This document shows, one piece after another, positions 35,832 through 42,205 of a stretch of DNA of 64,000 nt. The translations under genes were made by a program, and so were the position numbers. Within the stretch, counting starts at the first letter, position 1. Every line of letters starts with the position of its first letter. The stretch is from an uncultured Methylocystaceae bacterium. GTDB lineage: Bacteria > Pseudomonadota > Alphaproteobacteria > Rhizobiales > Beijerinckiaceae. The stretch is taken from contig CAIQCB010000009.1 in NCBI GenBank assembly GCA_903870245.1, positions 1-64,000 of the forward strand, written 5' to 3'. Under the pieces are notes generated by a model, which was given only the letters and a program-made list of their open reading frames with translations, did no database searches and was not told the origin of the DNA.

Positions 35832-35903
35832 TTAAACAACCTTGCATTACAAGGGTAATGGATGCGATGCTGGTTGTTCCCGGCATCGCTCCTGTCGCGA
35901 TTA

Positions 35904-36197
35904 TCAGAACAGATGAGGTTCTTGATTATAATATTGTTTAAAATCGAAGGGTTTTAGCTGCGCGCGACACGCTTTGCTGATTTGCGCGCCATGCTGGCGA
36001 AGGCAATCCTCCATCTCGTGCTGCCACATGATGTCGTCATTGCAATATTTGGCTGCGTCTTTGGCGCAGGCGTCGATCTCAGCTGCCCCGCCTTCGCCGG
36101 CGCTGTAATCTCTTGCAGAGGCATGATCGCCGAATAACGCCAGCGTCATAAGACCGAGGAATACGGCCACAAGCCGGCCAAGCCTGGATAATGTCAT
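35904..36197 (-). CDS. small exported Cys-rich protein, GLG1/Cys-rich-repeat-like (paralogue A)
   Basis: Signal peptide; DACAKDAAKYCNDDIMWQHEMEDCLRQHGAQISKACRAQLKPFDFKQYYN; similar to 36224..36574 and 40991..41281. Confidence 0.8.
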   Translation of the reverse strand: MTLSRLGRLVAVFLGLMTLALFGDHASARDYSAGEGGAAEIDACAKDAAKYCNDDIMWQHEMEDCLRQHGAQISKACRAQLKPFDFKQYYNQEPHLF

Positions 36198-36223
36198 CGT
36201 CTGTTCCTTCTCTGGGTTTAGAA

Positions 36224-36574
36224 TCAAGAGTTTGTTCCTGATTTGCGGGAGATCCCTGAAACCTGGACATCGGGCGAAAGCCATTTTTTGCTGTGATATT
36301 TACGAAAGTCTGTATTCTCCATGTGAGAACGACAAGCCGGCGTTAGATGCGCAATATGGCTTTGCAGACAATTTTCAAGCTCGAAGAGAAGCGGCGCCCA
36401 AGCTCTGCAATATTTGTTAATATCCTTGAGGCAATCGCCAAATTGCTGCCCATCATCATTATCTGTGTTGGGATCGTAGGAATGTTGCTGCGCCAGTGCA
36501 GATTCTGGGTTCGAGATAATTAACGTAGAACAAAGAATCATAATAAAGGAAATGGCCGCGAAACATTTCGACAT
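36224..36574 (-). CDS. small exported Cys-rich protein, GLG1/Cys-rich-repeat-like (paralogue B)
   Basis: Signal peptide; FGDCLKDINKYCRAWAPLLFELENCLQSHIAHLTPACRSHMENTDFRKYHSKKW; start trimmed to MSKCF. Confidence 0.78.
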   Translation of the reverse strand: MSKCFAAISFIMILCSTLIISNPESALAQQHSYDPNTDNDDGQQFGDCLKDINKYCRAWAPLLFELENCLQSHIAHLTPACRSHMENTDFRKYHSKKWLSPDVQVSGISRKSGTNS

Positions 36575-36877
36575 TTTGGAAAATCCAGATAATGAGGAAA
36601 AGTAATTTGGTTTATTGAGCGTTTCTTGGAATAAATGGCATTTGCGTCTCCATTTTAAGGAGATTTTTAACAAATCCAAATAATAACTAGGAATAGAGTT
36701 TGTGGATGATGCCATGAGAGAATGCCCATGGTCCGTATTATTATTCGAGGTATTATTAAATGTAATTGAAAGATCTAAACTTATTACAGATTTGTCTCTG
36801 ACAGGACCCGAGAGAGTCGGAGACAAACAGTAAAAATATCTGATTGGTTTCGGGATGATCATCATAAGCCTGCTTCT

Positions 36878-37591
36878 TTAGCAATCTTTGAGATTGCTCT
36901 CTCGACATTTCTTTGACATTTCATTGACCTTTGTAAACTCTTCCTTATTTAGAGTTTTAAAAGACAATTCCCGCAAACTTGATTTTTCAGATGGTGAATA
37001 TGACGGAGAGTCTGTTGCGATAAAGGTCCACATCGCACCTTTTAGCACGTCCCTGTTCGTCCCCTGGCCAAAAGCATACATGGTTCCCAAATTTAGCTGA
37101 GCTTCTGGATCACCATTTGACGCAGCGATTTTCATCCATTTGAAGGCTTCCCTGAAATCTTGGGGGACGCCGTTTCCCTCATAAAACATGGCTGCAACGC
37201 CAGCCTGCGCGGGCGGGACGCCTTGTCCGGCAGCGGATAGCAACCACTTCATTGCTTCATGGTAATTTTGAGTAACAACTTCACCATCCATATACATTGA
37301 ACCGAGATTGAATTGCGCGGAAGCCAGCCCCTTTTTTGCTGCTTCAGTTGTCCAGTGAACGCCCAGTTTTATATCGCGCGGCGTGCCTCGTCCAAAGAGG
37401 TATAACGCCCCGAGTTCGCCCTGCGCCCGGACATCGCCTTTTTCGGCAAGGGGTTTCAATAATTTGAATGCATTTGTGAAATCGTTTTTCTTGGAGGCCT
37501 CCAAGGCGGAGATATAGTCGTCACATTTCGCCTCGATGGAGTAAAGGCAAACAAAAATTTGTAATGCAAAAAACCAATATCTGTCGATCAT
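36878..37591 (-). CDS. Sel1-repeat (TPR-like) exported protein
   Basis: Three to four Sel1 repeats, e.g. AQFNLGSMYMDGEVVTQNYHEAMKWLLSAAGQG; N-terminal hydrophobic signal; start trimmed. Confidence 0.85.
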   Translation of the reverse strand: MIDRYWFFALQIFVCLYSIEAKCDDYISALEASKKNDFTNAFKLLKPLAEKGDVRAQGELGALYLFGRGTPRDIKLGVHWTTEAAKKGLASAQFNLGSMYMDGEVVTQNYHEAMKWLLSAAGQGVPPAQAGVAAMFYEGNGVPQDFREAFKWMKIAASNGDPEAQLNLGTMYAFGQGTNRDVLKGAMWTFIATDSPSYSPSEKSSLRELSFKTLNKEEFTKVNEMSKKCRESNLKDC

Positions 37592-37719
37592 GTAAAGCTC
37601 CACAATCGTATTATTCGTCCGTTTAGCTGACGGAACGAAGATTTGTATATTATCGACTCCGGGCAAGTCCATGCCCGGAGTCGGTATGTTGGACATTGAT
37701 CTATCGCGACACTGTCGCT

Positions 37720-38652
37720 TCAGTATTTGGCGACCACAGCTGCGGGAGCCGAATAAAAGTGATAATTGACGCCGGCTCTAACAAGATTGCCTGTTAAGCG
37801 CGGATTGATCGTTGATGAAGTCCAAAGCGCCGTCGAAGTTCCGACAGCAGCGCCTGCCCCCAGTGGTCCGGCATAGGAATTGAGGTTCAAATCGGCGCTG
37901 CCAAGGTCGTAATAAAGATATTCAACTTTGGCCGACCAGTTCTGCATGAACATCCATTCGGCTCCACCGCCTGCGGTCCAGCCAACCTGAACCTCAGAGA
38001 TATTTGCGTTGGCGAAGGCGGACTGGTTCAGCGCACCTGCGGTATTAAAGCCAAATTGAGCAAGATCGACGCTATAGGTGACATTGCCATAAGCAAGACC
38101 GCCCGTGCCGAAAACGAGCAGGTTCGGCATTGCGAGATAGCCAACGCGCCCACGAACTGTTCCAAGAAAGTTCATGTTGCCATTGCCGCTGAGTGAATTC
38201 CAGACTGAGCCGCCCGTAGAGACTGGCCAGATGTTATTGACGACGCGCGTGGTGTTTCCCGTCGGGACAACGCCCTGTATGTCGGCTTCGAAGCCCGCGA
38301 CAAGATTGCCGTTCAAGTATCCCGGTTGCCAATTGTAGCCGAGTTGCAGGCCACCGATAAAGCCGTTGGTGCTGCCGACATTCAGCGGACCATTCAATGA
38401 GGTCCAGAAAATGTCTCGATCCGGATGAGCTGCCTGAAACCGCGATGAGACCGGGTAAGTTGTCACCTGGGTGGAGCCGCCATTGGACCAGGTTCCGCCT
38501 GCGTTGACGCCGACATAAAACCCTTTCCACATGGGCGCCGGCGGCGGTGGCGGCGGCGCTTTTGTTGTGGGCAGGTCGGCTGCGAAGCCGATGCTCGGTA
38601 GCAGCAGCGCCGTTACGCAGAGCACGGATTTGAGTTGCTTGTTCATTGTCAT
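37720..38652 (-). CDS. Omp25/Omp31-like outer-membrane beta-barrel protein
   Basis: Signal peptide ending FAADLPTTKAPPPPPPAPMWKGFYVGVNAGGTWSNGG; C-terminal RAGVNYHF. Confidence 0.9.
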   Translation of the reverse strand: MTMNKQLKSVLCVTALLLPSIGFAADLPTTKAPPPPPPAPMWKGFYVGVNAGGTWSNGGSTQVTTYPVSSRFQAAHPDRDIFWTSLNGPLNVGSTNGFIGGLQLGYNWQPGYLNGNLVAGFEADIQGVVPTGNTTRVVNNIWPVSTGGSVWNSLSGNGNMNFLGTVRGRVGYLAMPNLLVFGTGGLAYGNVTYSVDLAQFGFNTAGALNQSAFANANISEVQVGWTAGGGAEWMFMQNWSAKVEYLYYDLGSADLNLNSYAGPLGAGAAVGTSTALWTSSTINPRLTGNLVRAGVNYHFYSAPAAVVAKY

Positions 38653-38738
38653 TCTCCAAACTTGTAAATTTTTGTTGTTACGCAGTTACGATTTGACTTG
38701 TGCTTCGGGCGCCTGCGCGCTTGATATGCCATGCAGCT

Positions 38739-40535
38739 TTAGTAGTTCCACTGCAGCTGCCAGCGCAGAGTGTCGGCCTGGAACTGGCGATAGGGCGCAG
38801 CAGTAATATTCGTGCGATCAGATTTGTTGTAGCTTGCCGTAATCTCAACCTCGGGCAGCGGCTGGTATTCGATACCGACATCCCACTCATTCACACGATT
38901 CTGGGGCGCATTGACTTCATATTTGCTGAAGCCGTTGAAGTATTGATACTGGACATAGGGGAAGAAGGTGCCGAGACCAAAGTCCTTATCCTCATATTTG
39001 TAGTTGACGAGCACGTAACCGCCGTTAATCTTTTGTGAAGTGATCGCTGTCTGGGTGGCGTTTAGACCCGGGCTGACGCCCCAGTTCCACTCGGCCTGTA
39101 CGCCGAAGGGCTGGGGGTAAACCACGCCGGTGAGCGCAACGCGAGAGTCCTGAATTCCCTGACAGCCATTGGCGCAGGCCGGCGACCAACCCGTTGTGCG
39201 GGGCCAGTAGCCCAGATTGAAATTGCCCGGCACATCGTATCCCGGCGCAACAACTACAGGCAGGTAGGAATTACCGCCCGGCTGGAAGGCTGGCAGCATC
39301 ACATTGCCAGCCCAGTTGGTTCCCATGCCGAGAGAGGGACGAATAGCGCCGGTTATTGGGGAAACTCGCCCGGTATAACCCTGAATGGAGGCTTCAACGA
39401 CCTGCCCGCTTTCAAAAACGTAGGGGTAGGTCATGCGCGCAACGAGATGAGTGTTCTTATTCAGCTCGACGCGGTTTGCGCCCTGGCCGTTATAAACGCC
39501 GAACGCGAACATGCCGTAATCGCCTGAACCTTTAAGATTGTTTTTCACAAGATCGCGGAAGAGATGACGCATATCTTTCGGGGTATAGTAGAAGAACAGG
39601 CCGAGATCGCGTTCATCACGTGTTGCTGTGTTCAGCGCATCCGGACGATCGAGAGTCAGACGGTTTTGTGACGACTGCATGTTTGTAAAGCCGTAGGGAA
39701 CCTTTGACTGACCGGCGCGGACACGGAACTCCTTGTCATGATCAAAGTAAATATCGGCATAGGCGTCGCGAAGCTGAGCGAAGTTGCCGCCAGTAGCTGC
39801 GGCGTTGGTTCCGATCATTCCTTGATAATAGGCGTTTACTGGCTGATAGGGACCCTGAAAGACGCCGTAGTAGCCCGGCGCGATACCGCCGGCGCCGATG
39901 GGTCCTGAGGCCGGAGAGTTGACGGCCCCGAAAAATGTTGCCGCGTTCGAGTATCCGCCGGGAGGCGTGCTCGCGAAATCCGGCTGGATGTAGATATAGA
40001 GGTGATCAGAGACGTCGCCAGAGAAGATCAGACGCATCCGGCGGATCAGGAAGTTCGATCGGGGCCGCGCCGAGTTATCCGCCCAGTAGACATCGTTATT
40101 GGCGAATTCCGAATTCTGCAGGAAATTGGTGTAACGCATCTGGGTATAACCACGAATGCTGATGCGGTTATACCACTGCTGCAATGACGCCGACGGATCT
40201 GGCGCCGAGCCGCCCGCATAGCGTCCATCGGCGGAGGGGGCTGAGGGCGCGCCACGGGCGGTGCCAACTTCGCCCGGATTGCTGCCCGAGGTTCCCGTGC
40301 CAAGTATGCCCTGGCCTGTGCCCCGGGGATTATTCATGATCGGGTTTGCGTGGTGGCTATGGCTTCCGCCGCCCCGGGACTCGAGCTGTTGAATACGCTT
40401 TTGCTGCTGCAGCAGCAGAGCCTTCAATTCTTTCACATCGTCTTCGGTGCTGGCGTAGGCAAGATTATTGGCGCCGAAGGCGCAGATGCTGAACGCCGCC
40501 ACGATCAGGGCTCTGTGAGCAACGGAATGTTTCAT
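38739..40535 (-). CDS. phosphate-selective porin O/P-like outer-membrane porin
   Basis: Signal peptide, N-terminal coiled coil (DDVKELKALLLQQQKRIQQLESR), RISIRGYTQMRYTNF, FLIRRMRLIFSGDVSDHLYIYIQPDFA, FRVRAGQSKVPYGF; C-terminal WQLQWNY. Confidence 0.85.
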   Translation of the reverse strand: MKHSVAHRALIVAAFSICAFGANNLAYASTEDDVKELKALLLQQQKRIQQLESRGGGSHSHHANPIMNNPRGTGQGILGTGTSGSNPGEVGTARGAPSAPSADGRYAGGSAPDPSASLQQWYNRISIRGYTQMRYTNFLQNSEFANNDVYWADNSARPRSNFLIRRMRLIFSGDVSDHLYIYIQPDFASTPPGGYSNAATFFGAVNSPASGPIGAGGIAPGYYGVFQGPYQPVNAYYQGMIGTNAAATGGNFAQLRDAYADIYFDHDKEFRVRAGQSKVPYGFTNMQSSQNRLTLDRPDALNTATRDERDLGLFFYYTPKDMRHLFRDLVKNNLKGSGDYGMFAFGVYNGQGANRVELNKNTHLVARMTYPYVFESGQVVEASIQGYTGRVSPITGAIRPSLGMGTNWAGNVMLPAFQPGGNSYLPVVVAPGYDVPGNFNLGYWPRTTGWSPACANGCQGIQDSRVALTGVVYPQPFGVQAEWNWGVSPGLNATQTAITSQKINGGYVLVNYKYEDKDFGLGTFFPYVQYQYFNGFSKYEVNAPQNRVNEWDVGIEYQPLPEVEITASYNKSDRTNITAAPYRQFQADTLRWQLQWNY

Positions 40536-40990
40536 TGTCCAAACCTTCCTTTTTTTGTGGAGGTTGGTCCCCCACATGTTCATGGACGGATTACTCGGCG
40601 CGCTCTGTGACGATTAGATTACAAAACAGTCGAGCGGTATGTGACTGGACGAGCGCGTTGAGAGTTGTTGTCCGATGACAACAGCAGTGGCCCTTGAATG
40701 TTGTTTAAGACATTGTAAATAATGAATAAAAATAAACAGTGAGAAACGGCGACAAAACCCATGACAGGAGGCTTGTGTCATGAATTTCGCTAAATCATTG
40801 TAAGTATGAAGTCAGTCGAGGCCGTTCTCGCTTGTAAAGCTTGTCAGGCTGACGGATCGAGCATGTTTGGGGGATCATTGCCGCCGTCAGAGACAACGCA
40901 TGAGTTCTGCGGCGAGCAAAATCACTTCGCTCAACCCGTGTAATTTACTAGTTGCGGAGAGAAGAGTCAGTTTTCGAATCACTCAATCCA

Positions 40991-41281
40991 CTAATCGAAG
41001 AGATTATCCGCCTCATTATGATACTTGCGGAAGTCGGTTGGCGCGATTTGATCCTTGCAGGCGGGAGTGAGCTGCCGCGTGTGTCGGGACAGGCATAACT
41101 CCATTTCGAAAATAGCCATCACATTTCCGCCACAAAATCGGGCGGCGTCACTGGCGCAGGCTTCCTGTTCCTCGGTGATGTTCTCGGCAATGACCCCGGA
41201 ATAGGAATGTTGCTGGGCATGAGAGGGAAAGACAGCAAAAATCACGCCCGCACACAGACAGAAGAGATAAAACCTACGCAT
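40991..41281 (-). CDS. small exported Cys-rich protein, GLG1/Cys-rich-repeat-like (paralogue C)
   Basis: Signal peptide; EACASDAARFCGGNVMAIFEMELCLSRHTRQLTPACKDQIAPTDFRKYHNEADNLFD. Confidence 0.82.
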   Translation of the reverse strand: MRRFYLFCLCAGVIFAVFPSHAQQHSYSGVIAENITEEQEACASDAARFCGGNVMAIFEMELCLSRHTRQLTPACKDQIAPTDFRKYHNEADNLFD

Positions 41282-41344: not shown

Positions 41345-42205
41345 TTATATGGACGCGTGATTTTCCGGCGCTGGAACTTTGGGCGGCGACGCGGGACGTC
41401 TGCTTTTTCTTTTGGCGATCAATGGGTCGTCAATGCTCAGACCATAGCCAATTCCTCTCACCGCACGAACGGCGTCTGTTCTGTTGGGGACAGTGAGCGC
41501 CTTGCGAAGTCTTCCCATCATGACGTCAATGGTGCGATAATCAATTTTATCCGGTTGTTCCCACAAGTGATTGATCAGTTCCTGCCGCGTAAAAATCTTT
41601 TTCGGCTCTCTTAGTAAAATCGCCAGCAACCTGAATTCGGCGTCGCGCAATTTTACAGGGGCGCCATGTCGGCGGACATCCCTCGCCTCAATGAGCATTT
41701 CAATGCCATTGTGCTTTAAGGCATTGCTGATTTCTTGTCCGTTGAGCACGAAATCGACCGGGGCGACTCTTCTGATAGTTTTCTTGCCTCCCGAGAAAAA
41801 GCTTTTTGTTCGAAGGAAACGCAGTTGGGCCCAGGCGCGCGTTACAAGTTCGACATCTGAAATGGGACGACCAAGGTAATCATCCGCTCCGACGGTAAGG
41901 ACACGGATTGCGTCAATTTCATTATGGGTATCGGAAATAACGATCACTCTGGTCTCATTGAGGGAAGCGTCAGACCTGATGCGGAGGCACAAATCCAGAC
42001 CGCTCAGGCCAACCGTTCCCCAGCTAACGATAATGATATTGGGAACGAATTGTTCGATCATGGAATAGGCTTCGGCGCTGTCCGCAGACCATTTGACCAG
42101 ATAGCCTTCATTTTCGAAACGCCGAAGCAGAGGCTCTGCGACCTCCTGGTTGTTCTCGATGAGCATTAATCTTGGCGCAAAACTCTGAAAACTATCCATA
42201 ATCAC
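41345..42205 (-). CDS. PhoB/OmpR-type winged-helix response regulator with degenerate receiver
   Basis: Receiver IIIVSWGTVGLSGLDLCLRIR...GADDYLGRPIS; C-terminal Trans_reg_C AEFRLLAILLREPKKIFTRQELINHLWEQPDKIDYRTIDVMMGRLRKAL...VRGIGYGL. Confidence 0.9.
   Translation of the reverse strand: MIMDSFQSFAPRLMLIENNQEVAEPLLRRFENEGYLVKWSADSAEAYSMIEQFVPNIIIVSWGTVGLSGLDLCLRIRSDASLNETRVIVISDTHNEIDAIRVLTVGADDYLGRPISDVELVTRAWAQLRFLRTKSFFSGGKKTIRRVAPVDFVLNGQEISNALKHNGIEMLIEARDVRRHGAPVKLRDAEFRLLAILLREPKKIFTRQELINHLWEQPDKIDYRTIDVMMGRLRKALTVPNRTDAVRAVRGIGYGLSIDDPLIAKRKSRRPASPPKVPAPENHASI

Follow-up and report, generated by a model that had tools for sequence, protein, structure and literature searches.

The window, by which we mean the whole stretch of 64,000 nucleotides analysed, comes from a 3.2 Mb genome of the genus Methylocystis and contains three genes for small exported four-cysteine proteins: cys1 (35904..36197; 97 residues, C-terminal DFKQYY), cys2 (36224..36574; 116 residues, DFRKYH) and cys3 (40991..41281; 96 residues, DFRKYH), all present on the minus strand, where the preliminary description of this DNA had placed three related open reading frames. 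For cys2 an alternative start upstream of 36574 is possible, the frame being open to 36865. This gene is located upstream of cys1 with a gap of 26 bp, and it is possible that the two are cotranscribed. The N-termini of the three proteins are signal-peptide-like when read by eye, with AxA-type sites (ASA-R, ALA-Q and SHA-Q) and no lipobox, and all three proteins end in a common tail, DF[RK][KQ]Y, in agreement with the signal peptide and C-terminal signature attributed to them earlier. The four-cysteine pattern described at that time is also real, but its spacing needs correction: the exact form is C-x2-D-x3-[YF]-C-x8-E-x-E-x-C-L-x2-H-x6-A-C-[RK], in which the first acidic residue follows after two positions and the x8 spacer, given before as x8-11, is constant in all three. 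The residues common to the three proteins include C44, D47, C52, E61, E63, C65, L66, H69, A76, C77, D85, F86 and Y89 (cys1 numbering), and a few more.

The three genes are colinear with, and beside, a set of envelope genes, the order of transcription on the minus strand being regulator, cys3, porin, outer-membrane protein, Sel1-repeat protein, cys2 and cys1. The porin (38739..40583; PF07396, E 9e-30) is of the phosphate-selective type (Porin_O_P), and is followed by an outer-membrane beta-barrel protein (37720..38652; PF13505, E 7e-9) and by a Sel1-repeat protein (36878..37696; PF08238, E 1e-35). Porin–Sel1 adjacency is kept in most porin-bearing relatives, according to the neighbourhood comparison, and in the window the beta-barrel gene sits between these two otherwise adjacent genes. 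The stretch between the Sel1 gene and cys2 (36575-36877) is AT-rich, with 35% GC against 55% for the window. The regulator (41345..42205, minus strand; PF00072/PF00486) precedes cys3 by 63 bp on this strand, and is a PhoB-like response regulator with a degenerate receiver: in the alignment with an annotated PhoB, DW is replaced by SW, EDE by ENN and KPF by RPI, so that the phosphoacceptor Asp has become Ser, the acidic pocket is partly lost and the conserved Lys is Arg. Judging by its sequence, this protein may act independently of phosphorylation. It scores 162.8 bits with the PhoB equivalog model TIGR02154, whose cut-off is 296.2, which leaves it outside PhoB proper, and at E ≤ 1e-40 it has no match in the 22 other Methylocystis genomes searched or in 14 additional genomes from the order. 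Models of defence systems gave no match for the three cysteine proteins, and weak matches of the regulator's receiver only. A terminator-like hairpin was located by a pattern scan at 35840..35854 (minus strand), about 50 bp 3' of the cys1 stop codon; the number of terminator-like sites in the region is not above that of shuffled sequences, and the same applies to the promoter scan. A comparison of upstream regions across loci yielded no convincing common element, the clearest inter-locus repeats being coding homology.

With a profile built from the three proteins, proteins of the same kind, with the DFRKY tail, were found in 16 further genomes of Methylocystis, each with a single copy. In 249 genomes of the bacterial family, all of at least 95% completeness, members of this group score 122-158 bits, and all other matches stay at or below 59 bits. 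Among the family genomes sampled, this DFRKY subfamily is restricted to Methylocystis, and it is new here. Because the same protein recurs in 16 other genomes of the genus at E < 1e-21 (profile of the three proteins), and because purifying selection acts on its copies there (for the single copies, a median dN/dS of 0.11 over 55 pairs), the pattern seen in the window is not due to chance. By ppk, the genomes closest to that of the window are G012, G007, G027 and G014; these do not have the subfamily, but they are small or incomplete.

The single copies have a characteristic location. In 15 of the 16 carriers the cysteine gene closely precedes ppc on the same strand, with bioB on its other side (PEP carboxylase, of 933 residues, and bioB were identified from their sequences); G009 is the exception, with its copy elsewhere. 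The distance between the end of the match and ppc is 102-141 bp in 13 of these 15, and larger in G008 and G022. Two close relatives, G021 and G023, match this bioB-ppc locus with 94-95% identity but lack a 429-bp segment holding the cysteine gene, and at the junction of this segment 4 bp are shared (BLAST junctions; for example, locus L051 of G005 against L182 of G023, upstream of ppc). At the ppc locus of the window genome bioB is present and the cysteine gene is absent. The short and regular distance to ppc on the same strand raises the possibility that the cysteine gene is a functional partner of PEP carboxylase or of central one-carbon metabolism, the window being a displaced case. We consider this very improbable, since it is hard to see how an exported protein would be connected with an enzyme of the cytosol, and ppc occurs without the cysteine gene in many relatives as well as in the window genome itself.

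Only the window genome carries three copies. The local amplification proposed in the preliminary description thus holds for this genome, but not for the other carriers, with their single copy. Of the three, cys3 is the nearest to the single copy of the relatives (43-58% identity, tblastn). The branches of the three copies are long (1.1-2.4, against a median of 0.28), and a test of their monophyly gave an AU p of 0.42 in the presence of these long branches. The three genes likely arose by local duplication, and the porin-side copies in the window diverged quickly, perhaps towards different partners.

The preliminary description also likened these proteins to the Cys-rich repeat of the eukaryotic Golgi protein GLG1 (Cys_rich_FGFR, PF00839). 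The three proteins match PF00839 in one register with 14.8 bits (cys1, E 0.03), 14.6 bits (cys2, E 0.036) and 14.1 bits (cys3, E 0.05), all below the gathering cut-off of 22 bits, and by this score they are not formal members of the family. When the cysteines were held fixed and the other residues of the mature proteins shuffled, none of ten shuffles matched PF00839. We also used a profile of ten bacterial proteins, taken from the genome hits above the PF00839 cut-off and all PF00839-positive when scanned. The mature DFRKY family aligned to this profile in hhalign with a score of 46.7, which none of 200 column permutations with fixed Cys columns reached (mean 10.6, maximum 25.5), and the four-cysteine core positions of the two sets (C, D, C, C-L and C) align column by column. 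Given a score above all permutations and shuffles without a match, these results support a homology that is real, though remote, as judged from the sequence profiles; the resemblance pointed out earlier is therefore upheld as distant kinship, but not as membership. The view of these proteins as special for being stand-alone bacterial modules has to be abandoned, as such modules are already common and annotated as 'cysteine rich repeat-containing protein': both single- and multi-repeat PF00839 proteins above the cut-off exist in other bacteria, and proteins of this type are widespread in the order of the window bacterium. At loci L075 and L083 and in genomes G217 and G344, from other bacteria of this order, there are proteins of about 260-316 residues with several PF00839 repeats, some with Ala/Pro-rich linkers. 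Some of the bacterial relatives are instead labelled 3',5'-cyclic-nucleotide phosphodiesterase, which is probably a misannotation. Two adjoining small genes on a Methylobacterium plasmid (L194, 3495-4113) have this label, and at least the first encodes a four-cysteine relative.

The preliminary description further saw in the neighbouring porin and regulator a dedicated envelope function, but this linkage is not conserved. A search of some 10 kb around the cysteine gene in the 16 relatives, where this gene is usually upstream of ppc, turned up neither porin nor regulator, and in 10 relatives the surroundings of the porin contained no four-cysteine gene. Roughly half of the Methylocystis genomes nevertheless have a close homolog of the porin (E ≤ 1e-150), and its distribution tends to follow that of the subfamily: of 34 genomes in a ppk tree, 16 have both genes and 15 neither, whereas one (G013) has the cysteine gene only and two (G030 and G035) the porin only; G473, from the family sample, also has the porin only. 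In random independent pairings on this tree, 5.6 of 7 agree and none is contrary (sign test, median p 0.03), and when five less complete genomes are removed the figures are 4.7 of 6 and a median p of 0.06, with a Fisher p of 2e-5 that takes no account of the tree. An amidohydrolase gene of the window, the single control gene, shows no association. The two genes thus tend to appear and disappear together though unlinked, a tendency that is suggestive and not conclusive, because it is based on a single-gene tree, one control and fewer than ten independent changes, with some of the genomes incomplete.

These data can also be accommodated if the three are generic small disulfide proteins of the periplasm, without any role specific to the porin. 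The co-occurrence would then be the outcome of common ancestry, habitat or genome size, and the location in the window an accident. The lack of conserved linkage to the porin and the p values of only 0.03-0.06 agree with this explanation. So do the neighbours of the wider family, which differ and show no common theme: an isopropylmalate-dehydrogenase-like gene, RND pump genes, cyo oxidase genes and an OmpA gene. This explanation leaves unaccounted for the repeated changes of the two genes in the same direction, with none contrary, and the one control gene without such a pattern. We hold a generic role to be a serious contender, at a little under even odds.

In our view, the three proteins may rather be periplasmic, disulfide-bonded helical accessories of the porin system, a reading to which we assign a probability of about 0.35. 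They belong to the small exported proteins of the Methylocystis-specific subfamily, with its remote homology to the PF00839 repeat. In the oxidising periplasm their four cysteines would pair into two disulfides and hold a short helical module together. The two models obtained with AlphaFold2 consist mainly of helix, with a core confidence of about 80 and mean pLDDT of 62.8 and 64.9, and show no readable cysteine pairing; fold searches of these models against solved structures returned nothing at E ≤ 0.001, and a search of the solved structures by sequence brought up no credible relative. Carrying conserved acidic residues (D45, E59 and E61 in cys3) and the DFRKY tail, the module could act as a structural or binding accessory, serving an envelope pathway that would include the porin and its Sel1-repeat neighbour. 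In favour of this reading there is also a relative in Agrobacterium, a weak match (E 0.5), whose annotated gene precedes one of the OmpA family by 4 bp. An envelope role tied to the porin is plausible, with modest support.

The same four invariant cysteines could instead serve as ligands in proteins that bind or handle a metal such as copper, which is important to methanotrophs and in high demand in these organisms, and a porin of solute-uptake type is close by. This seems improbable: once exported, cysteine pairs should become oxidised, the four cysteines are not joined by any invariant His or Met (many members have Tyr in place of the His that follows CL), and no metal-related family matched above its cut-off. 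A stronger form of the porin-accessory reading, in which the DFRKY proteins are soluble partners dedicated to a single type of porin, the two unlinked genes being gained and lost together and having been united and multiplied in the window genome, appears to us rather doubtful; if true, it would provide a first functional context for the bacterial GLG1-type Cys-rich repeats. The literature searched contained no paper on the function of bacterial PF00839-type proteins. The three proteins belong to a real genus-specific subfamily of this known, functionally uncharacterised bacterial family, and the restriction to one genus, clean presence and absence in close relatives and statistical tie to a porin make it a testable entry point.

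Among known systems, the CHCH and CX9C twin helical hairpins are alike as a general idea, with two cysteine pairs on short helices, but the spacings here are C-x7-C and C-x11-C, and no fold match was found. GLG1, a large membrane protein, has multiple tandem repeats and a transmembrane anchor, in contrast with proteins of 96-116 residues and one repeat each, and is tied to them through the PF00839 model only. Within Methylocystis there are wider relatives of about 80 residues (GTxxQRxAC..., for example on contig C50 of the window genome), with the same four-cysteine core and export signal, but no DFRKY tail and different loci; in a mixed set with these proteins the best PF00839 E-value is 8.7e-4. 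The closest counterparts are the bacterial 'cysteine rich repeat-containing proteins', which resemble the window proteins in their export signal, size (about 70-100 residues), detectable profile homology and common core, C-x2-D-x3-[aromatic/L]-C ... C-L ... C. Compared with these PF00839 members, the window proteins lie below the Pfam cut-off, do not have the G-rich PGGGR turn between the second and third cysteines, and carry instead the DFRKY tail.
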